In this document: piece by piece, positions 7,118-26,051 of the stretch | Layout: each line of letters opens with the position of its first letter | Position numbering within the stretch: the stretch's first letter is position 1 | The notes under the pieces: model-generated | Told to the model about the DNA's origin: nothing | The model's input: the letters and a program-made list of their open reading frames with translations, nothing else | Database searches by the model: none | Made by a program: the position numbers and the translations under genes | From: Aeromicrobium sp. | GTDB taxonomy: Bacteria; Actinomycetota; Coriobacteriia; Anaerosomatales; Anaerosomataceae | Reading direction: 5' to 3' | Assembly (NCBI GenBank): GCA_015351705.1 | Contig: JADIIM010000022.1 | Coordinates: 1 to 32,780 of the forward strand | Length of the DNA: 32,780 bases

Positions 7118-7198
7118 GTGTGTACCGTTGGTCGTGCGCAGCTTGAGAGGCCGAGAGCCCGTGTGTCGTCAGCAGGTCATCGCGAAAGCCCACACTTC

Positions 7199-9742
7199 AT
7201 GAGGTTCAACCTCTTCGGCCGTCATCTCTACACACAGCTCGTCTGGCCGCTGGTCCTGGGGGCCACGATCGTGGCCGTGCTCGCGACCATCGCCGCTGTG
7301 CGCGTCATCGAGTCCCAGGTACTCGACTGGGTCGATCGCAACGGACAGTCGGTCGCTTCCGTCGTTTCGACGCGGCTTGGCCATCGTGCTACTTCCGTGG
7401 AGCGGTCACTGGAGCTCATCAGCGCCGATCCGCGCTTCATCGCCGCCATCGAGGCTGGCGATGAGGAGGCGATGGAAGACTACCTCGCCTTTGCGGAACT
7501 TGCCATCCGGGCGGACACGCTCATGCTCCTCGGCGACGAAGATCGGGTCATCGTGTCGGTCGGGGAGACGACGATGCCCGAGGGCTCCGTACCCTTCCCG
7601 GCCGTGGGGGACCTCGCGGGCAGCGCGATACGCCTGGCGGAGCTTGCCGGTGAGAGTGTGGTCACCGTCACGGTTCCGGTTGCGGATGACCTGCCGGGTG
7701 AGCGCCTCCTGGTTGCCACCATCGCGCTTGATGACGCGCGCCTCGCCGATATCGGCCTGGGCCTCGATGCGGTCTTCGGCCTGGCCGACGGCGATGGGAC
7801 CCTCATCGCCCTCAGCGCCCCTGACACTGTGCCTGAGGACGAGGTCCAGAGCCTCCTGGAGCGGGTCGCCTCTGAAGTCCCCGGGGCGCTTGCGGGGCGC
7901 GATCTCGATGAAGGCGCGGTCGACGCGAGGCTCGGCGACGCCGGGTACCGGATGGTCCTGCACCCCCTGAACGATGTGCTCCCCAACCCGTCCGGCTACG
8001 TCGTGGTGTCGATCGTGAGCACCGCGCTCGCGGACGAAGCACGTGCCACCACGTTCTCGCTCATCGGTATGTGGTTCACACTCGGCCTGGTGGCGCTCGC
8101 GGGACTCAGCTGGTACCTGCGTCGCACGGTGTCCGATCCGCTCGTCCGGCTCTCGAAGAGCGCCACGCGCGTGAGTGGTGGTGACTTCCAGCCGGTCCCG
8201 GCGATCGCGGGGCACAACGAGATCGCGATGCTCGCCGACGACTTCAACCGCATGACGGACTCACTGCGCGAGCGTAGCGAGTCGCTCACCAAGAAGGTGC
8301 TCGAACTCGCCACACTCTACGAGATGAGCCGCTCCCTCGGGTCGACGCTCGAGCTTGATGCGCTGCTTGACTCGGTCCTGGACTCGGCGATGCGGATCTT
8401 TGACGTCGAGGTCGGCTACGTGACGATGGTCGACCGGGAGACCGGAACCCTCGAGCCGATCTCCTGGCGCGGTGTGGACCTCTCCCGCATGGACGAGGCG
8501 TCGATCCGCGGCTCGATGGCCGAGTGGGTCGTGCGCGAAGGCCGCCCTCTCATCTTCAATCCGTCGAGCGAAGAGGGCGAGAGCCGCGCCAGCGCTGCTG
8601 ATCCCGCCAGCGGAGCGGTTGCGGCACTGTGTGTGCCACTGCTCTCCTCCGAGGGGACGCTCGGCGCGATCACCGTCGGGTCCCATCATACGGACCGGCG
8701 TTTCGCCTCAGACGACGTGCGCCTGCTCTCCACCATCGCCAACCATGTCACGATCGCCGTCGGCAATATCGGGCTGTTCTCAAGCGTCCAGGAGGCGTAC
8801 CTGGCGACCGTCCGCGCCCTGGCCGCGGCGGTCGACGCCAAAGACCCGTACACGCGCGGCCACTCCGACGGCGTCGCCCGCTACGCGCTCATGATCGGCG
8901 AGGCCGCCGGCGTCTCGCAGGAGCAGATGACCGCGCTCGAGATGGCGGCGTACCTGCATGACATCGGGAAGATCGGCATCAGCGAGGACATCCTGCTCAA
9001 GCCCGGCAAACTGACCGATGCCGAGATGAGCCAGATGCGGCACCACCCGCTGATCGGCGCCAACATCCTGAAGCCGGTCGCGTTCCCCTGGCCCATAGCG
9101 CCGATCGTCAGACACCATCACGAGCACTATGACGGTGGCGGCTACCCCGCAGGGCTCCGTGGCGAGGAGATCCCGTTCCTGGCGCGGGTGCTGACGGTCG
9201 CCGACGCGTTCGAGGCGATGGTGGCCGACCGTCCGTATCGCCGTGGGCGCTCGCAGCAAGAGGCCATCCTCGAGTTGCGCCGCTGCTCGGGCTCGCAGTT
9301 CGACCCGCGGGTCGTCGACACGTTCATCGAGGTCCTGGAGTCGGTCGGCACGCTCACGCCGTACGACGACGGTGACGACGACGACATCGGTTGCGAGGAG
9401 GCCGAGGCGGTCCTCGTCGCGCTTTGCGACGGCATGTTCGCGAGCTTCAGGCGCCTCGGCGGGCCTCGGCTCGCGTCGAACCTTGAGGGCGCGATCAACG
9501 AGGCGTTCGCCGCACACGACGCGGCGTTCTCGTTCAACGCCGGCCGTCTGGTGGTAGAAGGCCGCGACTCGGACGGCGAGCTCACCGACCGGCTCGTAGG
9601 GGCGGTGCAGATCATCGCCGAGCGTATCGAGGACGCGTCGGGCTCGGGGCTTGCCGAGCACTTCCTGGGTGAGGCGGTGAGCACGCTTCCCGAGCGGATG
9701 CGGCGGTGCGCCGCCAGGCTCGGGTTCCCCGCTTCGCTGTAG
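7199..9742 (+). CDS. Membrane sensor with HAMP, GAF and HD-GYP domains (c-di-GMP phosphodiesterase)
   Basis: The 847-residue protein starts with a transmembrane helix (about 14-35), an extracytoplasmic Cache-like sensor region (36-280), a second helix (about 283-303), HAMP (about 305-358) and GAF (about 375-525). The HD-GYP domain (about 530-690) keeps the HDIGKIG metal motif at residue 587, the HHHEHYDGGGYPAGL signature near 640-650 and the VADAFEAMVADRPYR segment. This full set predicts hydrolysis of cyclic di-GMP in response to an outside signal. After it comes a linker with a D-rich run (DDGDDDD) and a C-terminal domain of about 130 residues that I do not recognise. The start at 7199 fits the promoter and membrane topology; GTG at 7163 is an alternative. 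It is transcribed alone before lysC. Confidence 0.88.
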   Translation: MRFNLFGRHLYTQLVWPLVLGATIVAVLATIAAVRVIESQVLDWVDRNGQSVASVVSTRLGHRATSVERSLELISADPRFIAAIEAGDEEAMEDYLAFAELAIRADTLMLLGDEDRVIVSVGETTMPEGSVPFPAVGDLAGSAIRLAELAGESVVTVTVPVADDLPGERLLVATIALDDARLADIGLGLDAVFGLADGDGTLIALSAPDTVPEDEVQSLLERVASEVPGALAGRDLDEGAVDARLGDAGYRMVLHPLNDVLPNPSGYVVVSIVSTALADEARATTFSLIGMWFTLGLVALAGLSWYLRRTVSDPLVRLSKSATRVSGGDFQPVPAIAGHNEIAMLADDFNRMTDSLRERSESLTKKVLELATLYEMSRSLGSTLELDALLDSVLDSAMRIFDVEVGYVTMVDRETGTLEPISWRGVDLSRMDEASIRGSMAEWVVREGRPLIFNPSSEEGESRASAADPASGAVAALCVPLLSSEGTLGAITVGSHHTDRRFASDDVRLLSTIANHVTIAVGNIGLFSSVQEAYLATVRALAAAVDAKDPYTRGHSDGVARYALMIGEAAGVSQEQMTALEMAAYLHDIGKIGISEDILLKPGKLTDAEMSQMRHHPLIGANILKPVAFPWPIAPIVRHHHEHYDGGGYPAGLRGEEIPFLARVLTVADAFEAMVADRPYRRGRSQQEAILELRRCSGSQFDPRVVDTFIEVLESVGTLTPYDDGDDDDIGCEEAEAVLVALCDGMFASFRRLGGPRLASNLEGAINEAFAAHDAAFSFNAGRLVVEGRDSDGELTDRLVGAVQIIAERIEDASGSGLAEHFLGEAVSTLPERMRRCAARLGFPASL

Positions 9743-12878: not shown

Positions 12879-14381
12879 GTGCGCTTCTCCTCGATACGAT
12901 CGCGCGTTGCTCTGCTGTCCACCGCGTTCGCCCTCGTCCTGGTCGGCAGCGTCACCATCGCGGCCTACGTCTTCGTCTACCAGGGCATGTTGGGACTCGC
13001 TGACGCCACCTCCGAGCGGCTGGCATCGTCGGCATCCCGCGTGGTGACGAGGATGAGCAACGATGCCGTCGCCTCGGCCGACCGTGCGGGGCTGACCGGG
13101 CCGGAGCGCGACGCGTTCATCAAAGAGGAGCTGCTGCTCTCACTCAGCGACATCCTCTCCCAGGGCCTCGTGCACGAGGGGACGTTCGCCTTGTACCTGC
13201 GAGACGCGCCGAGCGACCCGCTGGCGGAGTTCTGGCGGATCGGTGGCGACCCGTTCACCGGCGATGCCGAGCGACGCACCCAGGCGCTCGAGACGGGCGA
13301 TCCCGAACACGCGCATCCGGGCGGACAGTTCCTGCTCGCAGGACTGGTGATGCCGGCGAACCTTGGCGAGTACGTCACGTACGTGCCGATCGTCGTTCCC
13401 GGGGTCGACGGGGCGGTGCTCGATGTCGTCTACACGCCACTGCGCGAAGAGGCGATCCTCGACTCGATGCGCCTGCCGATGATCGCGGTGACCCTGGCCG
13501 CGCTCGCCGTCGCGCTCCTGCTCACGGCGTCGATCACCGGGTGGATCCTCACGCTCATCGGCGATATCCGCTCTGCTGCCGACTCCATCGACGTTGGGCA
13601 GCTCGACGTACACCTGCCGGACTCGGGCGACAACGAGATCGCCGAGCTCGCCCGCTCACTCAACCGGCTGATCGACAACCTGAAGCGGCGCAACGAGGTG
13701 CAAGCCCGCTTCATCGCGGACGCCTCCCACGAGTTGGCGACGCCGGTGGCCGGGATCCGCGGGTACGTGAACATCCTCAGAGCGTGGGGTGCGGAAGACC
13801 CGGGCCTGCGAGAGGAGGCGGTGAGCGCCATCGACCGTGAGTCGCGACGCATGGCCCGGCTGTGCAGCGACCTGCTCTCGGTGATCCGGTCGGAAGGCAT
13901 GGTCGAGTTCCGCTCCATCCGCTACGACCTCAACGGCGTCTGCCGCGAGGTGCTCGCGCACGCCGCCACACGCTACCTTGGCAAGCGCCTCGAGTTCTCC
14001 GGTCCCGACGAGGCGCCCCTGTGGATCTATGGAGATCCGGACCGGATCGAGGAGGCGCTCGGCATCCTGGTGGACAACGCCTGTAAGTACACGCCGGACG
14101 GTGGGAAGGTGAGCGTCTCCACCCGCCGACGGCGCGACCGGGTGATCGTCCGCGTCGCCGACACCGGCGTCGGCATTCCCGCCGAGGACCTGCCCAACAT
14201 CTTTGAGCGGTTCTATCGCAGCGACATCTCGCGCTCCAAGGAGACCGGCGGCTTCGGCCTCGGTCTCGCGATCGCGAAGCACATCATCGATCACAGTGCC
14301 GGCGAGGTCAGCGTAGAGAGCACGCTCGGCGAAGGCACCGTGTTCGAGGTCTCACTGCCCAGGCGCAAGGCGGGTGCGTGA
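12879..14381 (+). CDS. Membrane sensor histidine kinase
   Basis: The 500-residue kinase has a transmembrane helix at about 10-34, an extracytoplasmic sensor region of about 165 residues with no fold I can name, a second helix at about 200-226, HAMP (about 227-272), HisKA with the phospho-acceptor H284 in DASHELATPVAG, and a C-terminal ATPase domain with VDNACKYTP (N box), ADTGVGIP (G1), FERFYR (F box) and GGFGLGLAIAKHII (G2). All catalytic boxes are intact. In the H box the usual Arg after HEL is Ala, a small deviation. It starts with GTG straight after the regulator stop, and its own stop nearly touches the next gene. Confidence 0.92.
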   Translation: MRFSSIRSRVALLSTAFALVLVGSVTIAAYVFVYQGMLGLADATSERLASSASRVVTRMSNDAVASADRAGLTGPERDAFIKEELLLSLSDILSQGLVHEGTFALYLRDAPSDPLAEFWRIGGDPFTGDAERRTQALETGDPEHAHPGGQFLLAGLVMPANLGEYVTYVPIVVPGVDGAVLDVVYTPLREEAILDSMRLPMIAVTLAALAVALLLTASITGWILTLIGDIRSAADSIDVGQLDVHLPDSGDNEIAELARSLNRLIDNLKRRNEVQARFIADASHELATPVAGIRGYVNILRAWGAEDPGLREEAVSAIDRESRRMARLCSDLLSVIRSEGMVEFRSIRYDLNGVCREVLAHAATRYLGKRLEFSGPDEAPLWIYGDPDRIEEALGILVDNACKYTPDGGKVSVSTRRRRDRVIVRVADTGVGIPAEDLPNIFERFYRSDISRSKETGGFGLGLAIAKHIIDHSAGEVSVESTLGEGTVFEVSLPRRKAGA

Positions 14382-14382
14382 G

Positions 14383-14967
14383 ATGTCACGTGCGCGCTCC
14401 ATCGCCCACGCGGGGATGATAGCGGCCGTGTACGCCGCGTTCACGCTGGTGGTCATACAGAGCCCGCTCGGGTACGGCCCCGTGCAGTTCAGGGTCTCCG
14501 AGGCGCTCACGGTGGTGGCGTGCCTGACACCCGCTGCGATCCCCGGCCTGTGGCTCGGGACTGCGGTGGCTAACGCCTACCTCGCCACCCAGTTCGGTGT
14601 CCTTGCGGTGCTCGATGTGGTCCTCGGCTCGACCGCGTCCCTTCTCGGCGCGTGGTGGGCGTGGCGTCATCGGGAGCGGGCGGCGCTGGCCCTGGCCGGT
14701 CCGGTGGTGGCCAACGCGCTCATCGTGCCGGCGTACCTGCCGCTCATGCTCGCCGGACTTGCCGGTGTGGACTTCTACCGTGTGCCGGCGCTGGGCGTCG
14801 ATGCGTCGGGGGCGTGGCTCACGATGTACCTGTTCGGCGTGGTGGCCGTCGGGCTTGGCCAGGCGGTCGTCGTCTACGGACTCGGCATGCCCCTGCTGCA
14901 CCTCATGCGTCGCCTCGGCATCGACCGGCTGCTCGCCGAGTCGCAACGGGGGGGCGGCCGTGACTGA
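14383..14967 (+). CDS. queT: QueT-like ECF transporter substrate-binding membrane protein
   Basis: The 194-residue protein is very hydrophobic with about five to six helices. The N-terminal half carries the family motif GPVQFRVSEALTVV (about residues 26-39) followed by PAAIPGLWLGTAVAN, and the second half has LDVVLGSTASLLGAWWAW and VVVYGLGMPLL. These match the QueT (formerly DUF988) S components of energy-coupling-factor transporters, thought to import queuosine precursors. The transported molecule is inferred from the family. No EcfA or EcfT genes are adjacent and no preQ1 riboswitch is visible, as the gene lies within an operon. ATG 14383 is chosen 1 base after the kinase stop; GTG 14374 is an alternative. 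Confidence 0.8.
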   Translation: MSRARSIAHAGMIAAVYAAFTLVVIQSPLGYGPVQFRVSEALTVVACLTPAAIPGLWLGTAVANAYLATQFGVLAVLDVVLGSTASLLGAWWAWRHRERAALALAGPVVANALIVPAYLPLMLAGLAGVDFYRVPALGVDASGAWLTMYLFGVVAVGLGQAVVVYGLGMPLLHLMRRLGIDRLLAESQRGGGRD

Positions 14968-16756
14968 GGCCGCAACGTCCCATCCGGAGCGTCAACCGCT
15001 CCTGAGCTCGCCCGGCGACTTGTGCGACGGATGCGGTGCCTGCGTACGAATCTGTCCCGTGCGGGCGCTTCGGGTCGTCGGCGACCGGGTGGAGATCATC
15101 CCCGAGAAGTGTGTGGCGTGCGGCCTGTGCGTGCGAGAGTGCTCGCGCGGCGGCCACTCGGTACGTGACGACATTCCGGCCGTCGAGGCGCTCCTGCGCT
15201 CGAGGACGCCGGTCGTCGCGCTCCTTTCGACCGAGTTCATCGCGGCCCTTGCGCCCCTGACCGTCGTTCAGATCGAGCGGGCGCTCGAGGCGCTCGGCTT
15301 CTGCGCGGTGGAGACGACCGTCCTCGGCGAGGAGATGGTGGCCGAGAGCTATGAGCACCTGCATGGCCGTGATGACACCCTGGTGAGCATCCGCTCGACC
15401 TGCCCGGTGGTGACCTCGTTCGTGCGTGCGTATCACCCGGCGCTGGCCGGAGCACTCGCTCCGATCGTCCCGCCGTACGTGGCGCAGGCACGCCTGATCC
15501 GCGCGCTGTATCCGGAGGGCGTCGCGATCGTCTACGCCGGACCGTGTTACGCGCGCAAGGACGAGGTGTACGAACCTCAGCTTGTCGGCGTGATCGATGT
15601 GGCGGTCGACTTCACCGAGCTCAGGCGCTTGATCGACCGCCATGCGGCATCGCCGTCCCACACCCGGCTCACCGCGCCGCCACTCCAGCGCCCGCGGGTC
15701 CTCAAGGAGGTCTCCCTCACCGACGGGTTCCCGCGCAAGACCGTTGCCGAGCGCCAGCTCTCCGGCTGCGGCGTGGAGACGGTGCGCGGTCTTGCCGAGC
15801 TTGAGCGGCTCCTGTGCGCCGTCGAGGCGGGAGAGGTCGCGCCGCGGATCATCGACGCGCTGAGCTGCGAGGGCTGCATCGACGGCCCTGCGGTGGCGCC
15901 CGGCCTGTCGCTGTATGCCAAGCGCACGATCGACGCGAGTGCGCGTGAGGACCGCGGTGCGACCCGGGTGAGCACTCGTGCCCTTCTCGAGGTGCTGCCG
16001 TCGGTCGATCTTCGTCGCTCGTTCGATCCCGACCCGGTGGCGCTCGTACGGCCGGAGGATGCCGAGGTCGATGCCGTGCTCGCGGCGGGGGGTATCGATC
16101 GGGAACAGGCACCGGACTGTGGGGCGTGTGGATGGGCCACGTGTGTCGAGCACGCGGTGGCCATCTACCGTGGAGACTCCACATGGGACCTCTGCCTGCC
16201 GCTGCAGCGCTCCCTGCTGAAGGACCGCTCGTCCCGTCTGGAGGCATGCGAGACCCTCGATCCGCTGACCGGGGCCTGGAACCGTCGCTCCTTCGCCGAC
16301 CGACTCAGCCTTGAGCATGCGCGACACGCTCGCTACGGTACACCGCTCGCGGTGCTCGCCCTCGATGTGGACGGTCTCGGCGCGGTCAACGATCGGCTCG
16401 GCGAGGCGGCGGGTGACCGCGTCCTGCGAGAGATCGCCTCGCGGCTGGCCCGTGAGGTGCGCTCGACCGACCTGGTGGCGCGCTGGGGTGGCGACCGGTT
16501 CTCGGTAATCGTGCCGGGCATCTCCAAGACCGCCGCGTTCGCGGTCGCGGAGAAGCTGCGTGTGGCGGTCTCCGGAGCGACGATCCCCGTCGAGAGCGAC
16601 GGGTATACACATGACGTGTCTGTGACGGTGTCGGTGGGCGTGGCAGCCGCGGGTCCGGGTGCGCCGGACCCGGGAGAGATGCTCGAGGCCGCCGATACCG
16701 CGCTTCTGCAGGCGATCGCCGCCGGAGGTGACCAGGTGCGCCTGGCTCCCGGCTAG
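14960..16756 (+). CDS. [FeFe]-hydrogenase-like iron-sulfur protein fused to a GGDEF domain
   Basis: The 598-residue protein has four parts. (1) Two 4Fe-4S motifs: C22, C25, C28, C32 and C51, C54, C57, C61. (2) A domain like the large subunit of sensory-type [FeFe] hydrogenases (about 80-330), with the H-cluster cysteines recognisable: C148 in RSTCPVV, C196 in GPCYARKDE, and C303 and C306 in LSCEGCIDGP. (3) A small 4Fe-4S domain with C387, C390, C395 and C412. (4) A GGDEF domain (about 432-598) with DPLTGAWNRRSF, signature GGDRF at 510-514 and an inhibitory-site motif RSTD at 501-504. Sensory group C/D hydrogenases are known to be tied to signalling domains, so the iron-sulfur part probably senses hydrogen or redox state. 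Glu of GGDEF is Arg here, so cyclase activity is doubtful. GTG is preceded by GGGGGGG, and the gene overlaps queT by 8 bases. Confidence 0.86.
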   Translation: MTEAATSHPERQPLLSSPGDLCDGCGACVRICPVRALRVVGDRVEIIPEKCVACGLCVRECSRGGHSVRDDIPAVEALLRSRTPVVALLSTEFIAALAPLTVVQIERALEALGFCAVETTVLGEEMVAESYEHLHGRDDTLVSIRSTCPVVTSFVRAYHPALAGALAPIVPPYVAQARLIRALYPEGVAIVYAGPCYARKDEVYEPQLVGVIDVAVDFTELRRLIDRHAASPSHTRLTAPPLQRPRVLKEVSLTDGFPRKTVAERQLSGCGVETVRGLAELERLLCAVEAGEVAPRIIDALSCEGCIDGPAVAPGLSLYAKRTIDASAREDRGATRVSTRALLEVLPSVDLRRSFDPDPVALVRPEDAEVDAVLAAGGIDREQAPDCGACGWATCVEHAVAIYRGDSTWDLCLPLQRSLLKDRSSRLEACETLDPLTGAWNRRSFADRLSLEHARHARYGTPLAVLALDVDGLGAVNDRLGEAAGDRVLREIASRLAREVRSTDLVARWGGDRFSVIVPGISKTAAFAVAEKLRVAVSGATIPVESDGYTHDVSVTVSVGVAAAGPGAPDPGEMLEAADTALLQAIAAGGDQVRLAPG

Positions 16757-16765
16757 GAGGGCCTG

Positions 16766-17788
16766 ATGCACGAGGCGCTGCTCTGGGAGCCTGAGGGCGA
16801 GCGCATCCACTGTTTGCTCTGCCCGCATGACTGCCGCATCGCCGAGGGGGCACGTGGGATCTGCGGCGTACGCGAGAACCGCTCGGGCAGACTGCACGCG
16901 CTCACGTACGGACTGGTGTCGTCGGTCGCGGCAGATCCCATCGAGAAGAAGCCGGTGTTCCACTACCGGCCGGGGACGTTCGCGCTCTCACTCGGCAGTG
17001 TGGGCTGTTCGATGCGCTGTGGGCACTGTCAGAACTGGCGTATCAGTCGCGCGCGCCCCGGCAGCGACGACGGTCTCGAGCGCCTCGCGCCGGAGCGTGT
17101 CGTGCCACTGGCGCGCGAGAGTGGGTGCGCCGGTGTGGCGTTCACCTACAACGAGCCCGTGATCTGGATCGAGTACGTACTCGACGTCGCGCGCGCGTGC
17201 CGTGAGGCCGGCCTGTACACGGTCATGGTGACCAACGGCTACATCACCACGGCGGGGCTGGACCTCATCGGGCCGTACATCGATGTCTGGCGGGTCGATG
17301 TGAAGGGCTTCAACGACACGACATACCGGGAGTTCTGTCGTGCGCGGTCCGTGCATCCGGTGCTCGAGGCGGCCGAGCGCGCCAAGAAGCGCTGGGGGAT
17401 GCATCTCGAAGTCGTCACGAACATCGTACCCACCGTCAACGACGATGATGACACCCTGCGCTCGATCGCGCGGTGGATCGCGGCATCACTCGGCCCGCTG
17501 ACGCCGTGGCACGTGACCCGCTTCTTCCCGTATCTGGACATGGCCCACCTGCCGCCCACGCCGATCGCCACGCTCGAGCGCGCCATCCAGACCGGTGCCG
17601 AGGAGGGACTCTGCTTCGTGTACGCCGGCAACGCACAGGTGCCCGGCGGGGAGGACACGGTGTGCCCGTCGTGCGGCGCGGTCGCCATCGGGCGCTCCGG
17701 GTACCGTATCATCAGGCATGAGACGATCGCGGGTGCGTGCACAGCGTGCGGTGCGGCACTCGGCATCATCGAGGAGGCGATTGCATGA
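16766..17788 (+). CDS. amrS: AmmeMemoRadiSam-system radical SAM enzyme
   Basis: The 340-residue protein belongs to the pyruvate-formate-lyase-activase-like radical SAM group. N-terminal cysteines C16, C19, C23 and C33 (HCLLCPHDC and GICG) are followed by YGLVSSVAADPIEKKPVFHY, typical of AmrS. The SAM cluster motif is C81, C85, C88 in GCSMRCGHCQNW, then AFTYNEPVIWIEY and the DVKGFNDTTYREF strand. The C-terminus has two CxxC pairs like a zinc ribbon. In the named system AmrS accompanies AMMECR1 and MEMO proteins; neither is in this window, so its substrate is unknown. A very strong TAGGAGGG precedes the ATG. Its stop overlaps the start of the selenoprotein gene in an ATGA, which ties the two together. 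Confidence 0.88.
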   Translation: MHEALLWEPEGERIHCLLCPHDCRIAEGARGICGVRENRSGRLHALTYGLVSSVAADPIEKKPVFHYRPGTFALSLGSVGCSMRCGHCQNWRISRARPGSDDGLERLAPERVVPLARESGCAGVAFTYNEPVIWIEYVLDVARACREAGLYTVMVTNGYITTAGLDLIGPYIDVWRVDVKGFNDTTYREFCRARSVHPVLEAAERAKKRWGMHLEVVTNIVPTVNDDDDTLRSIARWIAASLGPLTPWHVTRFFPYLDMAHLPPTPIATLERAIQTGAEEGLCFVYAGNAQVPGGEDTVCPSCGAVAIGRSGYRIIRHETIAGACTACGAALGIIEEAIA

Positions 17789-19800: not shown

Positions 19801-20607
19801 GTGTTCCGTCCGGCGACCGCCGACGAGCTCGGCCGTCTTGTCCGTCCGCTCATCGCCGCGCGTCTGTTCACCGACGAAGCCGAGGTACGCGCCGCACACG
19901 TGGCCGACCCGTGGCGCGTCCTGGTGGCTGGACGCGATGTGGCTGTCTGCGATCGATGGCGGGACCATCTCGGCTTGCTCGCGGTGGAGGCGCTGTGGTG
20001 CGCCGAGCCCCGGGTGGCCGAACACGTGCGTGGGCTCATCGACCTCGCACACGAGCGTGGCTACGACGCCCTGTTGAGCCCACCCGTGTCTGAGGCCGAC
20101 ATCGCTCCGTACGAGGCCGCAGGCATGCACGTCATCGAGACCGCATCATCGTGGTGGCGTCCGCTCGTGCGTCGGCCCGTGCCGGTGGCAGGTGGTCCTC
20201 CCGGCATGACAGTGCGCGTGGGCGGGCCGGCCGACATACCGGCCGTTGCGGCTGCCGACGGGGCCTGTTTCGAGCAGTTCTGGCGGTACGACCTGCGCCA
20301 TCTCGACCGACTCGTCGGCACACAGCGGCTGACCGTCGCCGAGTCCGGAGACGACGTCGTAGGCTATACTCTCAGCACGGTCGACCGTGGCCATGCGCAA
20401 CTCGGCAGGCTCGGCGTCGTGCCGGCATGGCGCAACAAGGGCGTTGGCCGGGCGCTGCTCGACGATGCGATGCGGGCCGCCCGGACTCGGGGCGCCGTCA
20501 GGTTGACCTTGTGTACGCAGGTGGACAATGCGGCCGCACGGGCGCTGTACGGGAGTGCCGGCTTCGAGGAGTCGGACGTACGCTTCGCGTTCCTGCGGTC
20601 GGACTGA
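19801..20607 (+). CDS. GNAT-family acetyltransferase, tandem domains
   Basis: The 268-residue protein looks like two GNAT units. The N-terminal half (1 to about 125, from VFRPATADELGRLVRPL to AAGMHVIETASSWWRPL) has the secondary pattern but no acetyl-CoA loop and is probably degenerate. The C-terminal half (about 138-268) has TVRVGGPADIPAVAAAD, LGRLGVVPAWRNKGVGRALL with the R-x-x-G-x-G acetyl-CoA loop, and NAAARALYGSAGFEE. It should transfer an acyl group to an unidentified amine. GTG 19801 is chosen because it starts 5 bases after the previous stop and directly opens the domain. It may act on the same product as the glycosyltransferase, but this is only suggested by position. Confidence 0.78.
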   Translation: MFRPATADELGRLVRPLIAARLFTDEAEVRAAHVADPWRVLVAGRDVAVCDRWRDHLGLLAVEALWCAEPRVAEHVRGLIDLAHERGYDALLSPPVSEADIAPYEAAGMHVIETASSWWRPLVRRPVPVAGGPPGMTVRVGGPADIPAVAAADGACFEQFWRYDLRHLDRLVGTQRLTVAESGDDVVGYTLSTVDRGHAQLGRLGVVPAWRNKGVGRALLDDAMRAARTRGAVRLTLCTQVDNAAARALYGSAGFEESDVRFAFLRSD

Positions 20608-20627
20608 GACGGGATCGGGGGGTCGGC

Positions 20628-21917
20628 ATGTCGACGGTGCGGTCCTGGGTCGTCGACGCCGTGCTGGTGGTCACGACCGTGATCATCGCCGTGGTCGCCG
20701 CCGCGAGCCTCATCGCCGAGGTCCCTCGGCCGGTGTTCATAGCCGCGACCGTCGGGCTCGTGCTGATCGCGGTCGGCATGGCCGCATCGCGCGTGGTCAC
20801 CCGCCCGGACCATCTGAAAGCGCTGCATTCGCAGCACGTGCTCGAGATCGCCGACCGTTCGCTCGTGTACCTCCGGCAGGGTCTCGAACCGGCAACGGCG
20901 CAGGAGGTCTGCCGTCTGGCGCTCGACGAGAGCGAGGCGGCCGCCGTGGCGATCACCGACACCGAGTGCGTGCTCGGGTTCGCCGGCATCGGCGAAGACC
21001 ACCACGCTCCCGGCGGCCCGATCATCACCAAGGCGACGCGCGAGGCGATCGAGACCAACGAGCACCGGATACTCGCCTCCCAAGACGAGATCGGCTGCCC
21101 TAAGCGGGACTGCCTGCTGCGCGCGGCGATCGTCGTGCCCCTCGAGATGCGCGGTAGGGCGGTCGGCACACTGAAGTTCTACTACACCACACCGCGGCTC
21201 CTGAACGAGACGCAGGTGACGATGGTCGAGGGCCTCGCACGTCTGTTGTCCACCCAGCTCGAACTGTCTGAGCTGGAGCGCCAGACCGAGCTCGCCTGCC
21301 GCATGGAGCTCCGGGCACTTCAGGCGCAGATCAACCCGCACTTCTTGTTCAACACCATCAACACCATCGCGATGCTGATCCGGACCGACCCCGCCAAGGC
21401 ACGCGAGTTGTTGCGCGAGTTCGCCGCGTTCTACCGTCGCATGCTCGAGGACAACGAGGGGCTCATCCCGCTCCGGCAGGAGCTCGAGTACGCGCTCACC
21501 TATCTGCGCTTCGAGCAGGCTCGGTTCGGCGAGCGGCTCCGCGTGCAGCACGACTTCGACGAGAGCGTTCTGGGCGTGCCGGTCCCGGCCTTCATACTGC
21601 AGCCGCTCGTGGAGAACTGCGTCCAGCACGCCACGCCGGCCGAGGGCGCGCTCACCGTCACGCTCGGCGGACGTCGCGACGGTCGGGCGGTGACCGTCCT
21701 GATCGCCGACGATGGCGCGGGGATCGACCCCGCGGACCTTCCGCGCGTGTTGGAGCCGGGTTTCGGCAAGGGGCTAGGCATCGCGCTCAAGAACGTGGAC
21801 GATAGGCTCCGGGGACACTTCGGCCCCGGCAGCGGCCTGGCGGTGGACAGCGAGCCGGGTCGTGGCACCACGGTCACCATGACGATCATCGAGGACCCAC
21901 CGGCGACAGGCGACTGA
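20628..21917 (+). CDS. LytS-type sensor histidine kinase
   Basis: The 429-residue kinase has two N-terminal membrane helices (about 7-29 and 34-55), a linker helix, a GAF-like domain (about 80-205) that contains several cysteines (TECVLGF, GCPKRDC), a His_kinase domain with the phospho-acceptor H238 in QAQINPHFLFNTINTIA, and an ATPase domain with LQPLVENCVQHA and DDGAGI, ending in GKGLGIALKNVDDRL. This is the LytS/YpdA/BtsS type. Such kinases in other bacteria sense small carboxylates such as pyruvate. The LytTR regulator starts 4 bp downstream and symporter genes follow within 2.3 kb, so control of carboxylate uptake is a fair inference. The GAF cysteines may have a redox role, but this is not shown. 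Confidence 0.9.
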   Translation: MSTVRSWVVDAVLVVTTVIIAVVAAASLIAEVPRPVFIAATVGLVLIAVGMAASRVVTRPDHLKALHSQHVLEIADRSLVYLRQGLEPATAQEVCRLALDESEAAAVAITDTECVLGFAGIGEDHHAPGGPIITKATREAIETNEHRILASQDEIGCPKRDCLLRAAIVVPLEMRGRAVGTLKFYYTTPRLLNETQVTMVEGLARLLSTQLELSELERQTELACRMELRALQAQINPHFLFNTINTIAMLIRTDPAKARELLREFAAFYRRMLEDNEGLIPLRQELEYALTYLRFEQARFGERLRVQHDFDESVLGVPVPAFILQPLVENCVQHATPAEGALTVTLGGRRDGRAVTVLIADDGAGIDPADLPRVLEPGFGKGLGIALKNVDDRLRGHFGPGSGLAVDSEPGRGTTVTMTIIEDPPATGD

Positions 21918-21921
21918 GACG

Positions 21922-22629
21922 ATGCTCAAGGCACTTCTTGTCGATGATGAGGTACCCGCCCGCTCGGAGCTGCGCTACCTGCTCGGGGAGGCGGGAGGCG
22001 TCGAGGTGGTCGGCGAGGCGGGCAGCGCGAGCGAAGCGCTGCAGCTGATCCGTGCCATCGCCTACGACGTCGTGTTCCTCGATGTCAACATGCCTGGGCT
22101 TTCGGGCATCGAGTTGGCCGAGACGCTCTCAGGCCTTGAGCATCCGCCCGCGATCGTCTTCGTGACCGCACACAGCGAGCACGCGGTCGACGCGTTCGAG
22201 GTCGCCGCCGCAGACTACCTCGTCAAGCCGGTGGAGACGGCGCGGCTGCGCACGGCCATCGAGCGGGTGACCCCTGCGGCCGAGGCGCCGGCGCGCATCG
22301 AGCGCATCCCGGTGGAGAAGGCCGGGCGCAAGTTGCTGCTCCAGGTGGCCGACATCCTGCATATCATGGCCAAGGACGACTACAGCTACATCTTCACCGA
22401 GGGGGAGCGATACTTGTCCACGCTCTCGCTCGCTGAGCTCGAACAACGGCTGTCACCCCAGGGCTTCTTCCGCGTCCATCGGCGGTACCTGGTGAACCTC
22501 GCGCAGGTCAAAGAGGTCGCGCCGATGTACGGTGGCACGATGGAGCTCACGCTCAAAGACGATGCGGCGACGCAGGTCCCCGTATCGCGGCGGCGTGCTC
22601 CTGCGCTGAAGCGGGCGCTCGGGCTGTGA
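21922..22629 (+). CDS. LytTR-family response regulator
   Basis: The 235-residue regulator has a receiver domain (acidic pocket D8-D9, phospho-acceptor D54 in VVFLDVNMPG, VTAH and LVKPVE switch elements) and a C-terminal LytTR DNA-binding domain (about 135-235) with ILHIMAKDDYSYIFTEGERYLS, the FFRVHRRYLVNLAQVKEV core and VPVSRRRAPALKRAL. LytTR domains bind short direct repeats. It forms a two-component system with the LytS-type kinase just upstream. No matching repeat pair was identified before the symporter genes by eye. The start lies 4 bp after the kinase stop. Confidence 0.92.
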   Translation: MLKALLVDDEVPARSELRYLLGEAGGVEVVGEAGSASEALQLIRAIAYDVVFLDVNMPGLSGIELAETLSGLEHPPAIVFVTAHSEHAVDAFEVAAADYLVKPVETARLRTAIERVTPAAEAPARIERIPVEKAGRKLLLQVADILHIMAKDDYSYIFTEGERYLSTLSLAELEQRLSPQGFFRVHRRYLVNLAQVKEVAPMYGGTMELTLKDDAATQVPVSRRRAPALKRALGL

Positions 22630-22633
22630 TCGC

Positions 22634-23080
22634 GTGCTGATCGGCGTCATCTCGGATACTCACGGCACGCTCCCGCCCTCGGTCGCGGCCGCCTTCAGGG
22701 GCGTCGACCGCATCCTCCACGCCGGGGACGTAGGTTCCGAGACCGTGCTCGACGAACTTGCCGCGATCGCGCCGGTGGTGGCGGTCAGCGGCAACACCGA
22801 TGTCGGTCCTCTCGACTGGCGTCTGCCCGGTGCGGCCACCATCGCCTGCTGTGGCCTGCGCGTACACATGACTCATCGGCCACAGGACGTCCCGAAGGGC
22901 CTGGATGCGGACGTGGTCGTCACCGGTCACACACACCGCGCGCTCGTCGCTCACCGCGACGGGGTGCTGCACGTCAACCCAGGCCCGGCCGGTGCCGCAG
23001 CCCGCGATGGGCGTGGTCCGACCGTCGCCCTGCTCGATTGTGCCGCTCGCCCGGTGACCGCTCGCATCGTGGAGCTGTAG
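22634..23080 (+). CDS. YfcE/MJ0936-like metallophosphoesterase
   Basis: The 148-residue protein has the full calcineurin-like metal set: D and H in ISDTHG (residues 6-11), GDV near 32, GNTD near 54, and GHTHRALV followed by HVNPGP in the last third. This is the short YfcE-type phosphodiesterase that splits artificial phosphodiesters in vitro; the natural substrate is unknown. It starts with GTG 4 bases after the LytTR stop and is probably co-transcribed. A 228-bp spacer follows (23081-23308), holding only a weak 5-bp hairpin at 23089-23104 and no gene. Confidence 0.88.
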   Translation: MLIGVISDTHGTLPPSVAAAFRGVDRILHAGDVGSETVLDELAAIAPVVAVSGNTDVGPLDWRLPGAATIACCGLRVHMTHRPQDVPKGLDADVVVTGHTHRALVAHRDGVLHVNPGPAGAAARDGRGPTVALLDCAARPVTARIVEL

Positions 23081-23308
23081 TCACCCTTCACCCGCAGCAG
23101 GGTGGCGGTGAGCGGTGCGCTTCGAGGCATGAACGGCGGCTGCTACGCCCGGTGGTCTGTTCGCCTGCCACTCACCGCCGATACGCACCCCTCCGCCGAC
23201 ATGCCGCCACCACACGCGGCGACTTCATCGCGCCCGCTCCGATCCGGTCGTAGCCTGTGTCTGCGGGCGCATATCGGCCGCCCGAACGGTACTGGGGAGG
23301 TGTCACGC

Positions 23309-23803
23309 ATGAAGGTCTGCATCAAGGGCGCCGCCGAGGACATCAAACTCGGTGACATCGATGAGGTGTGCCATGAGATCGACCGCATCCTTCTGCCCAC
23401 CGATGGCTCGGAGCCGTCGGTGGCAGCCACGGAGTACGCGGTGATCATGGCGCGCACGTTCGGGGCACGGGTCAAGGCGATCTATGTGGATACCGGCCTT
23501 GAATCGCTCGAGTACCCCGAGGAGATCATGTCCGAGGAGGTCTACGAGGGTGTCCATCAGTCGGTCAAGGGCCTCGTCATCGCCAAGACGCTGTGCGATC
23601 GAAACGGCGTCGACTGCGAGGTCGAGATCGTCCAGGGCGGTGTCGCCAAGCGGATCCTGGCGACCGCCGAGGAGTGGAAGGCCGACATGATCGTCCTCGG
23701 CGACACGGGTCGTACGGGCATCAAGCGGATCGCACTCGGCAGTGTGGCCGAGACCGTGGTCAAGGGCGCTCCCATCCCCGTGATGGTCGTCAAGGCGGAG
23801 TAG
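23309..23803 (+). CDS. Universal stress protein (UspA family)
   Basis: The 164-residue protein has an extra N-terminal stretch of about 27 residues (MKVCIKGAAEDIKLGD) before the Usp fold starts at RILLPTDGSEPSVAATEYA. The ATP-binding signature is present near the end: IVLGDTGRTGIKRIALGSVAETVV, with the G-x2-G-x9-G-S pattern. It should therefore bind ATP. Such proteins next to symporters often regulate transport or energy stress, here only by inference. The ATG at 23309 is preceded by GGGGAGGTG. Upstream in-frame sequence lacks any family match. It lies 44 bp before the symporter small subunit, with a small hairpin between. Confidence 0.88.
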   Translation: MKVCIKGAAEDIKLGDIDEVCHEIDRILLPTDGSEPSVAATEYAVIMARTFGARVKAIYVDTGLESLEYPEEIMSEEVYEGVHQSVKGLVIAKTLCDRNGVDCEVEIVQGGVAKRILATAEEWKADMIVLGDTGRTGIKRIALGSVAETVVKGAPIPVMVVKAE

Positions 23804-23806
23804 GCT

Positions 23807-23821
23807 GCCGACGCTGTCGGC
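23807..23821 (+). terminator. Small hairpin between usp and symporter genes
   Basis: GCCGAC pairs perfectly with GTCGGC around a 3-base loop, then comes TTCATCGTTT. With a 6-bp stem it is likely a weak or partial terminator, allowing some read-through into the symporter genes. Confidence 0.38.
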
Positions 23822-23847
23822 TTCATCGTTTGGAGGAGGTGCGCAAC

Positions 23848-24210
23848 ATGGGAGAGACGAGTGCACGGGCGACCCACGTCCAGCACGGCAGCCACATCGA
23901 CACGATCGAGAGTGTCGATGCCGTCTTCCGCGAGCAACGCAAGCTGAGCTTCGCGTACGGCGCCGTGTTCTTCGTGGTCACACTTGCGATCCCCGCCATG
24001 TCCGTGTGGTGGAAGAGTTGGTACGCCGTTCCCATCTGGGGCGGTTTCACGGCCAACTACCTGTTCGTATCGCTGCTCTACTACCTGTTCCTGTGGGGCC
24101 TGAGTTGGACGTACATCAAGAAGGCCGACGCCCTCGACGAGCGTCTCTCGCACATGGCTGACGAGATTGCCGCGGCCACACTCGCGGCGGCCGAGGGCGG
24201 TGAGTCGTGA
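23848..24210 (+). CDS. Sodium:solute symporter small subunit (DUF4212)
   Basis: The 120-residue membrane protein has two helices (about 38-58 and 70-93), with FAYGAVFFVVTLAIPAMSVWWKSW and FTANYLFVSLLYYLFLWGLSWTYIKKAD, the pattern of the DUF4212 partner of VC_2705-type symporters. Its role is thought to be assembly or activity of the large subunit. TGGAGGAGG before the ATG is a near-perfect ribosome-binding site, while an upstream in-frame extension runs into the usp gene and is rejected. It overlaps the large-subunit gene by 1 base. Confidence 0.87.
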   Translation: MGETSARATHVQHGSHIDTIESVDAVFREQRKLSFAYGAVFFVVTLAIPAMSVWWKSWYAVPIWGGFTANYLFVSLLYYLFLWGLSWTYIKKADALDERLSHMADEIAAATLAAAEGGES

Positions 24211-26051
24211 TGGGTAACCTCAACATCATCGCCATCGTGATGGTCATCGGCCTGACGGTCTTCACCGTCGGTCTGGCCATCTTCGTACGCCGCTTCACCC
24301 GCACCACCGCCGACTTCTACCTTGCGGGACGCAAGGTCGGCACCATCGCGAACGCCTCGGCGATCTCCGGTGATTACCTGTCGGCGGCGTCCTTCCTCGG
24401 CGTTGCGGCGGCGGTCTACGCCTCGGGTCTGGACGGCGTGTGGTATGCGGCGGGCTTTGCCGGCGGGTTCATCGTCGTCGTGTTGTTCATCGCCTCGGCG
24501 CTCAGGCGCTTCGGTGAGTACACCGTGGCCGACTTCGCTTTCGGCCGCTTCGGCTCCAGCCGCATCCGGTTGTTCACGGTGGTCATGGTGCTCCTGACGA
24601 GCCTCTTCTACATGGCGCCGCAGATGTATGGTGCGGGCACCACGTGGACCGTTCTCGTCGGCGCCGGCATGTTCGGGCTGTCGCCGTACCAGACGGGCGT
24701 CGTCATCGTCGGCCTCATCATCATGTTCTACGTCATGGTGGGCGGCATGAAGGGCACCACGCTCAACCAGATCTTCCAGTTCTGGTGGCTGTGGACCGCG
24801 ATGTTCCTCGTCGTCGTGTTCGCTTTCACCGCGGGCAAATTCAACTACGCCAAGGGCCTCGAGGAGGTCACCGCCGAGAACCACCGCGACGTGAAGACGG
24901 TCACGGTGGCCGAGCTGACGGCCGACGATGCGGCACTGCTCGCCTCGGTCGAGACCGCGATGAGCGAGAAGGGCTTCGCCGAGGTCCAGGCCGTCGTCGA
25001 CGCGGGCGATCCCGATGCCACCGTCGGCGTTCTCATTCCGGCCAAGAACAAGCTCCACACGCTGCGTGACATGTTCTTCAACGAGCCCGGACACCGCTAC
25101 AACGCGTTCGACCAGTTCTCGATGGTTCTCGCGCTCGTGCTGGGCACCGCCGGTCTCCCGCACATCTTGAACCGGTACTACACGAACCCCTCGGGCTCGG
25201 CGGCGCGGCGCTCGACGTTCTGGGTGCTCGTCTTCATCGGGACGTTCTACATCCTCGCCCCGATCGCGGGACTCGCCGGCAAGCTCATCATCGACGACGC
25301 ATGGCGGGCCGGGCTCGCGCCGGCCAACGCGGCGTACGTCGACGGGCTGCTGCTCAAGTCCGACGCCATCATGCCCACGCTTGCGCAGATCCTCGGCGGG
25401 GAGTGGCTGATGGGCGCGGTCGCTGCCGGAGCGTTCGCGGCGATGTTCTCCACCACCGGAGGTCTGCTCATCGCTTCGGCGTCGGCCATCGGGCATGACG
25501 TGTACGAGAAGTACATCAACCCCGACGCTCCCGAGGCTCGCAAGGTGCTCGTGGGTAAGATCTCCGTGCTCTTCTTCGCGGTGGTCGCACTCGGGATCGG
25601 TCTCGGGATCCCGGCGGTCGGGCTGGACAAGGCCTACCCTGCGCTTATCGCGATGATGGTGACGTGGGCGTTCGCCGTCGGCGCTGGAGCGTTCGTGCCG
25701 ATGCTGCTCACGGGCATCTGGTGGAAGAAGACCACCGAGCGTGGTGCGCTGGCAGGCATGCTCGTCGGCGGACTCGGCTCGTTCTTCTTCATCATCATGA
25801 ACATCCTGAAGCAGCTCGGCCACCTGCCCAGCGAAGGTGTGCTCGCCTTTGTCGGAAGCCTGACCTTCCCGACGCTCTTCACGTTCCCCGCTGCCCTGCT
25901 CACCATCATCATCGTGAGCAAGATCGACGGGCAGCTGCCCAAGAACGTGGACGAGATCTGGATGCGCATCCACGGTACCGCGAGCGAGCGACACGAGAAG
26001 GAGCTCGGGCTGGACAAGGTGAGCACGATGTTCGGCAACAGCAAGCACTGA
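24210..26051 (+). CDS. Sodium:solute symporter, acetate (ActP)-like, VC_2705 type
   Basis: The 613-residue protein is a multi-helix permease of the sodium:solute symporter family. It has an N-terminal helix, FYLAGRKVGTIANASAISGDYLSAASFLG (unwound helix 1 region with Ser/Asp), and AAGAFAAMFSTTGGLLIASASAIGHDVY late in the protein, which matches the second sodium-site helix. A soluble insert of about 90 residues (about 215-300) is typical of the VC_2705 subgroup. Acetate or another short carboxylate is the likely substrate by family. ATG 24210 overlaps the small-subunit stop; GTG 24207 is one codon earlier. A 13-bp hairpin follows the stop. Confidence 0.9.
   Translation: MGNLNIIAIVMVIGLTVFTVGLAIFVRRFTRTTADFYLAGRKVGTIANASAISGDYLSAASFLGVAAAVYASGLDGVWYAAGFAGGFIVVVLFIASALRRFGEYTVADFAFGRFGSSRIRLFTVVMVLLTSLFYMAPQMYGAGTTWTVLVGAGMFGLSPYQTGVVIVGLIIMFYVMVGGMKGTTLNQIFQFWWLWTAMFLVVVFAFTAGKFNYAKGLEEVTAENHRDVKTVTVAELTADDAALLASVETAMSEKGFAEVQAVVDAGDPDATVGVLIPAKNKLHTLRDMFFNEPGHRYNAFDQFSMVLALVLGTAGLPHILNRYYTNPSGSAARRSTFWVLVFIGTFYILAPIAGLAGKLIIDDAWRAGLAPANAAYVDGLLLKSDAIMPTLAQILGGEWLMGAVAAGAFAAMFSTTGGLLIASASAIGHDVYEKYINPDAPEARKVLVGKISVLFFAVVALGIGLGIPAVGLDKAYPALIAMMVTWAFAVGAGAFVPMLLTGIWWKKTTERGALAGMLVGGLGSFFFIIMNILKQLGHLPSEGVLAFVGSLTFPTLFTFPAALLTIIIVSKIDGQLPKNVDEIWMRIHGTASERHEKELGLDKVSTMFGNSKH

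Follow-up and report, generated by a model that had tools for sequence, protein, structure and literature searches.

A GGDEF-linked signalling protein probably derived from sensory hydrogenases and proposed to lack an H-cluster

A 598-residue protein encoded in the window (the whole stretch of DNA analysed, 32,780 nucleotides, from a member of the order Anaerosomatales) joins an [FeFe]-hydrogenase-type H-domain and additional Fe–S motifs to a GGDEF domain. It is classed here among the signalling proteins that derive from sensory hydrogenases, as a form with a new output and no H-cluster; judging by its sequence and genomic setting, it most likely senses the cellular redox or Fe–S state, not hydrogen gas. 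The fusion is genuine, and it is both old and widespread. The explanation considered probable here is that of a maturase-independent Fe–S/redox sensor that arose from a kinase-linked sensory hydrogenase and acts as a redox-gated cyclase in most lineages and as a c-di-GMP-binding regulator in the family of the window's organism. The sequences show the layout, the lost motifs, the missing maturases, the conservation, the single clade and the synteny described below; cluster type, redox input, c-di-GMP binding and the partner are inferred. The original prediction had coupled hydrogen or redox sensing to c-di-GMP signalling; the connection of an Fe–S/redox module with c-di-GMP signalling is retained, and hydrogen sensing by an H-cluster is not.

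Architecture, distribution and descent of the fusion

The fusion gene occupies positions 14960–16756 of the forward strand as a single uninterrupted frame that runs from GTG at 14960 to TAG ending at 16756; its start overlaps the 3′ end of a QueT-like gene by 8 bases. A Pfam search identified two Fer4 motifs (residues 20–64), an Fe_hyd_lg_C domain (residues 86–310; 93 bits, cut-off 22), an FeS domain (PF04060; residues 386–414) and a GGDEF domain (residues 433–591; 126 bits). These scores exceed the curated cut-offs, which excludes chance matches. The NCBIfam [FeFe] models place the protein far under their cut-offs (TIGR04105, 113 bits vs 450). The features of the protein are as follows.

14960..16756, +, fusion protein of 598 aa: two [4Fe-4S] ferredoxin motifs, H-domain, FeS domain, GGDEF domain (frame and Pfam)
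15017..15157, +, two ferredoxin-type [4Fe-4S] motifs, C22 C25 C28 C32 and C51 C54 C57 C61, all invariant (Pfam, alignment)
15215..15889, +, H-domain, Fe_hyd_lg_C, residues 86–310 (Pfam)
15233..15235, +, Glu92, at the position of CpI S232, the hydrogen-bond donor to the proximal cyanide (PMC12138974) (alignment)
15392..15406, +, L1 motif RSTCP with C148; Thr in place of the proton-relay Cys (alignment)
15542..15565, +, L2 motif PCYARKDE with C196; Arg at the K358-equivalent position (alignment)
15866..15889, +, L3 motif CEGCIDGP with C303 and C306; CxxC, not CxxxC (alignment)
16118..16195, +, FeS domain Cx2Cx4Cx16C, C387 C390 C395 C412; like M2e/M2f sensory hydrogenases (PMC8163306) (Pfam, alignment)
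16196..16255, +, linker of about 20 residues from FeS to GGDEF, predicted to be mostly helical (low-confidence model)
16256..16732, +, GGDEF domain (Pfam, alignment)
16460..16471, +, c-di-GMP inhibitory site (I-site) RxxD, R501-S-T-D504 (alignment)
16487..16501, +, degenerate cyclase signature GGDRF, fourth residue Arg for Glu (translation, alignment)

The AlphaFold2 model of the fusion, built from a 10-row alignment, has a mean pLDDT of 61 and values below 50 in the L3 region; no argument rests on it.

Full-length fusions with 46–69% identity are encoded in 60 of the 69 genomes of the order. In the remaining genomes, the fusion is split across contigs (two genomes), broken (one) or was not seen (six). 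The broken ortholog (locus L103, G011:C28:8000-19000) extends over two frames, which reflects either decay or an assembly error. A wider search with a profile limited to the first 407 positions showed that the full-length fusion recurs in 23 more genomes from other groups of Actinomycetota; the GGDEF domain is present in each of the six fusions from outside the order that were scanned with Pfam. The one-chain layout predicted originally, with its coordinates and domains, is thus borne out. A frame error that would split off the GGDEF part, or an assembly artefact, is ruled out as the source of the fusion by the 60 full-length orthologs of the order.

In a tree of the H-domain region (quick method), the fusions occupy one side of a single branch (SH-aLRT 96), which makes one single fusion event likely. 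The nearest relatives by this tree are kinase-fused proteins with the layout 2×Fer4–H-domain (CxxC)–FeS–HisKA–HATPase, present in genomes G416 and G497 and in many Bacteroidota; their usual place is immediately next to a catalytic [FeFe] hydrogenase. A second protein with an H-domain and GGDEF, very divergent and with CxxxC spacing (L102:2065-3855), was found in one Coriobacteriia genus (g82). In the H-domain tree it was labelled among the rows lacking GGDEF; it sits on a long branch, and its placement is unsure.

The GGDEF domain and the gene neighbourhood

The diguanylate-cyclase signature GG(D/E)EF is replaced by GGDRF in the window protein, a detail that, like the CxxC spacing of C303 and C306, goes beyond the original prediction. 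The canonical signature is lost in 25 of the 25 members of the window's family (f1) and kept in 30/31 orthologs from the rest of the order; it is intact in most fusion lineages other than this family. The FK and GH motifs are also lost in nearly all family members. The metal- and guanine-binding residues D469, N477, D486, D512 and K532 are retained in the window protein. The RxxD motif aligns with that of PleD and is kept in all 56 orthologs of the order, and the window protein has the combination of a degenerate A-site and an intact RxxD that characterises degenerate-GGDEF receptors. In one such receptor, PelD, c-di-GMP is bound via the RxxD of a degenerate GGDEF domain (PMC7112168). Ten pairs from the window's family gave dN/dS values of 0.11–0.32 for the degenerate domain; this corresponds to purifying selection and indicates that the domain is not decaying freely.

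Replacement of AGDEF by AGDAF abolished c-di-GMP synthesis by VCA0965 (PMC3974145). The window protein is likely to be inactive as a cyclase, because it has Arg at this same fourth position of the signature. The predicted c-di-GMP output therefore has to be divided: synthesis is unlikely for the window protein, given the degenerate domain of its family, and likely for its relatives. An active redox-gated cyclase in the window's organism too, with GGDRF still making c-di-GMP, is rather unlikely. The metal, guanine and phosphate residues remain, making weak activity conceivable, most orthologs outside the family are canonical, and changes in the first position of the signature can be tolerated, some of these degenerate signatures being active (PMC3974145); the family, however, has lost the fourth-position Glu in every member, as well as the FK and GH motifs in nearly all, and it was the fourth position whose change to Ala inactivated VCA0965.

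Three neighbouring loci recur with the fusion gene.

14374..14967, +, QueT-like transporter, directly upstream in nearly every genome of the order that was checked (Pfam, synteny)
16766..17788, +, radical SAM enzyme of the AmmeMemoRadiSam system; begins 9 bases downstream of the fusion gene and adjoins it in most of the order (profile match, synteny)
20151..22629, +, LytS/LytR-type two-component system, close to the fusion gene throughout the order and in several further groups of the phylum (profile match, synteny)

The gene order QueT–fusion–radical SAM (AmmeMemoRadiSam)–DsbA-like–glycosyltransferase–LytS–LytR is conserved in almost the whole order; outside it, many groups have LytS/LytR or the radical SAM gene close to the fusion gene. 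This conservation suggests regulation shared with the fusion and names no partner. In the window, LytS/LytR is followed by genes for a phosphoesterase, a universal stress protein and an ActP-like symporter of the VC_2705 family (20151–26051 for the whole run). Upstream of the fusion, the same conserved neighbourhood includes a HAMP-GAF-HD_5 protein (7118–9742), a candidate HD-GYP-type c-di-GMP phosphodiesterase according to the reading of its domain.

Since the radical SAM gene lies next to the fusion gene in the majority of the order and also in several groups outside it, the Fe–S chain might feed electrons to this enzyme, with the GGDEF domain as its c-di-GMP-controlled regulator. Such a role in electron transfer is improbable: some orthologs within the order lack this adjacency, as do many of the groups outside it, and there LytS/LytR is the closer of the conserved neighbours; moreover, the nearest relatives of the fusion carry a histidine kinase, which is a signalling output. 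The adjacency is a possible lead to the function of the AmmeMemoRadiSam system.

Fe–S clusters, the [2Fe] pocket and the maturases

All 16 cluster cysteines (eight in the ferredoxin motifs, four in the H-domain and four in the FeS domain) are invariant in the 79 fusions aligned, and the H-domain cysteines C148, C196, C303 and C306 are those named originally. Four [4Fe-4S]-type sites in a lineage of anaerobes would also suit a sensor of Fe–S status, oxygen or NO, in which the signal is the assembly or loss of clusters and not redox potential. This version is quite improbable as a separate reading, and nothing in the data separates it from redox sensing.

K358 acts at the distal cyanide. This position is not Lys in 76 of the 79 fusions; it is Arg in 56/56 proteins of the order and Ala, Gln, Lys (three), Val, Trp or His outside it, a variety that suggests relaxed constraint. 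Lys occupies it in 15/16 kinase-fused, 12/12 PAS-type and 8/8 catalytic proteins. S232 of CpI donates a hydrogen bond to the proximal cyanide (PMC12138974); the corresponding residue is Glu in 79/79 fusions, and the 37 other H-domains compared all have Ser or Ala there, although this Glu arose once on the tree and counts as one event, not per sequence. The L3 spacing is CxxC in all fusions and CxxxC in catalytic enzymes and PAS-tailed relatives. The CxxC spacing by itself was rejected as proof of H-cluster loss because it is shared by kinase-fused relatives in maturase-bearing genomes. Replacement of the proton-relay Cys by Thr says little, since this Cys is commonly lost in sensory types (PMC10055695). 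In sum, the fusion has the four [4Fe-4S] cysteine ligands of an [FeFe] hydrogenase and the 2×Fer4–H-domain–Cx2Cx4Cx16C core of group C/D sensory hydrogenases, and lacks the CxxxC spacing, K358 and the Ser/Ala at the S232 position.

The [2Fe] part of the H-cluster requires HydE, HydF and HydG (PMC11736057; PMC6212873). No match above the cut-off was found for HydF in the 69 genomes of the order (the matches seen span the GTPase part only), for HydG in the same 69 (0/27 in the family, 0/42 in the rest of the order) or for HydE in the 25 tested; all three were likewise negative in the 23 fusion genomes outside the order. Thermotoga maritima, the positive control, was positive in each search. Most genomes that encode catalytic [FeFe] hydrogenases also gave matches: HydE and HydF in G158, G192, G238, G416, G516, G517, G706 and G742, and HydG in G416 and G516–G518. 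None of the three maturases was found in G109 or G193; the former genome encodes a protein of 538 aa whose H-domain match is strong (220 bits; G109:C12:204711-205415).

Three class relatives of genus g82 (G158, G192 and G238) possess catalytic [FeFe] hydrogenases, with HydE and HydF above the cut-offs and no HydG. In G192, HydE is encoded at C118:29371-30387 and HydF at C118:28145-29296, and a weak HydG match falls on the HydE gene. HydG-independent maturation or an assembly gap is possible in this genus. The absence of HydG by itself is therefore insufficient as proof, and HydF and HydE, both present in g82, were searched for as well.

PF02906 has exactly one match in each of the 48 fusion genomes tested, which leaves no other H-domain protein there; in the window's own genome (96.75% complete), the fusion is the sole H-domain protein. 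The two isolates of the Coriobacteriia order Anaerosomatales are reported to have [NiFe] hydrogenases only (PMC9686372). Absence of hydEFG had been named in advance as an argument against a real H-cluster, and this absence, together with the replaced residues of the [2Fe] pocket, weighs against the H-cluster. A hydrogen sensor, in which a real H-cluster signals H2 or the redox potential to GGDEF, would fit the four invariant cysteines, the core layout of M2e/M2f sensory hydrogenases (PMC8163306) and the finding that kinase-fused CxxC relatives have catalytic [FeFe] hydrogenases as neighbours in maturase-bearing genomes, but is very improbable in view of the missing HydE, HydF and HydG in all fusion genomes tested, the Glu at the S232 position, the replaced K358, the CxxC spacing of L3 and the lack of a catalytic [FeFe] hydrogenase to regulate.

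Proposed mechanism and comparison with known systems

According to the favoured explanation, that of a maturase-independent Fe–S/redox sensor, the fusion would be a soluble Fe–S signalling protein descended from a sensory [FeFe]-hydrogenase-like ancestor. The four cysteines of the H-domain probably hold an ordinary [4Fe-4S] cluster, the [2Fe] subcluster having been lost, and with this loss the protein is proposed not to react with H2. Four [4Fe-4S] sites, presumably filled, would be present in total: two in the ferredoxin motifs, one in the H-domain and one at Cx2Cx4Cx16C. Their redox state or loss may serve as the signal and would alter the short linker and, through it, the GGDEF domain. Most lineages have an intact GGDEF domain, and their proteins probably work as diguanylate cyclases gated by redox state, with feedback from the product through the I-site. 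In the window's family, the active site appears to have decayed with the I-site kept under purifying selection, and the domain most likely binds c-di-GMP, which would link the level of this messenger to the Fe–S module or to a putative partner.

The chances are about even that these proteins form a hydrogenase-derived class, spread over several groups of one phylum, which lost the H-cluster to become maturase-independent Fe–S redox sensors and gained a c-di-GMP output, one family having turned from making c-di-GMP to reading it. If this is true, the second messenger feeds back on the redox module. Through this class, c-di-GMP would be coupled to redox state in anaerobic Actinomycetota, and the scaffold of a sensory [FeFe] hydrogenase would be seen to survive the loss of the H-cluster and of the maturation genes. 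The fusions are natural material in which the sensing of H2 and that of redox state could be told apart. The presence of all four cysteines in an H-domain cannot be taken as evidence for hydrogen metabolism, and annotation by domains only would misread these genomes.

An H-domain homologue that functions without an H-cluster is known in Nar1/NARF, which has a eukaryotic role in cluster assembly and no GGDEF domain. Literature searches returned no description of a fusion of an [FeFe] H-domain with GGDEF. In HydDB, [FeFe] group C is linked to kinases (C1), chemotaxis (C2) and phosphatases (C3), and the only cyclase link is that of [NiFe] group 2c (PMC5037454). This agrees with the original remark that GGDEF is an unusual output for such proteins.

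The fusion resembles histidine-kinase-linked (C1-type) sensory proteins in its two Fer4 motifs, H-domain with an L3 CxxC, Cx2Cx4Cx16C FeS domain and C-terminal signalling output; the C1 label of these relatives comes from domain layout, and the C1-like placement of the fusion from the tree. Unlike the fusions, the kinase-linked proteins have a HisKA–HATPase output, keep S232 and, in 15/16 cases, K358, and sit by catalytic [FeFe] hydrogenases in genomes with maturases. Group C1 proteins of Hydrogenedentota with a HATPase domain have also been reported to lack the usual H-cluster motifs (PMC11406978). TmHydS (group C, M2f) and TamHydS (group D, M2e) share the 2×Fer4–H-domain–Cx2Cx4Cx16C core and the absence of the proton-relay Cys (PMC8163306; PMC10055695), but bind the H-cluster and turn over H2; neither has GGDEF, M2f carrying PAS and M2e being without an output domain. 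[NiFe] group 2c of HydDB is similar as a hydrogenase-type sensor with a proposed link to c-di-GMP (PMC5037454), although the enzyme is unrelated. In the window's family, the degenerate A-site with a kept RxxD is like that of PelD, PopA and CdgA (PMC3974145; PMC7112168), which differ in having no Fe–S or H-domain and in acting with other partners.
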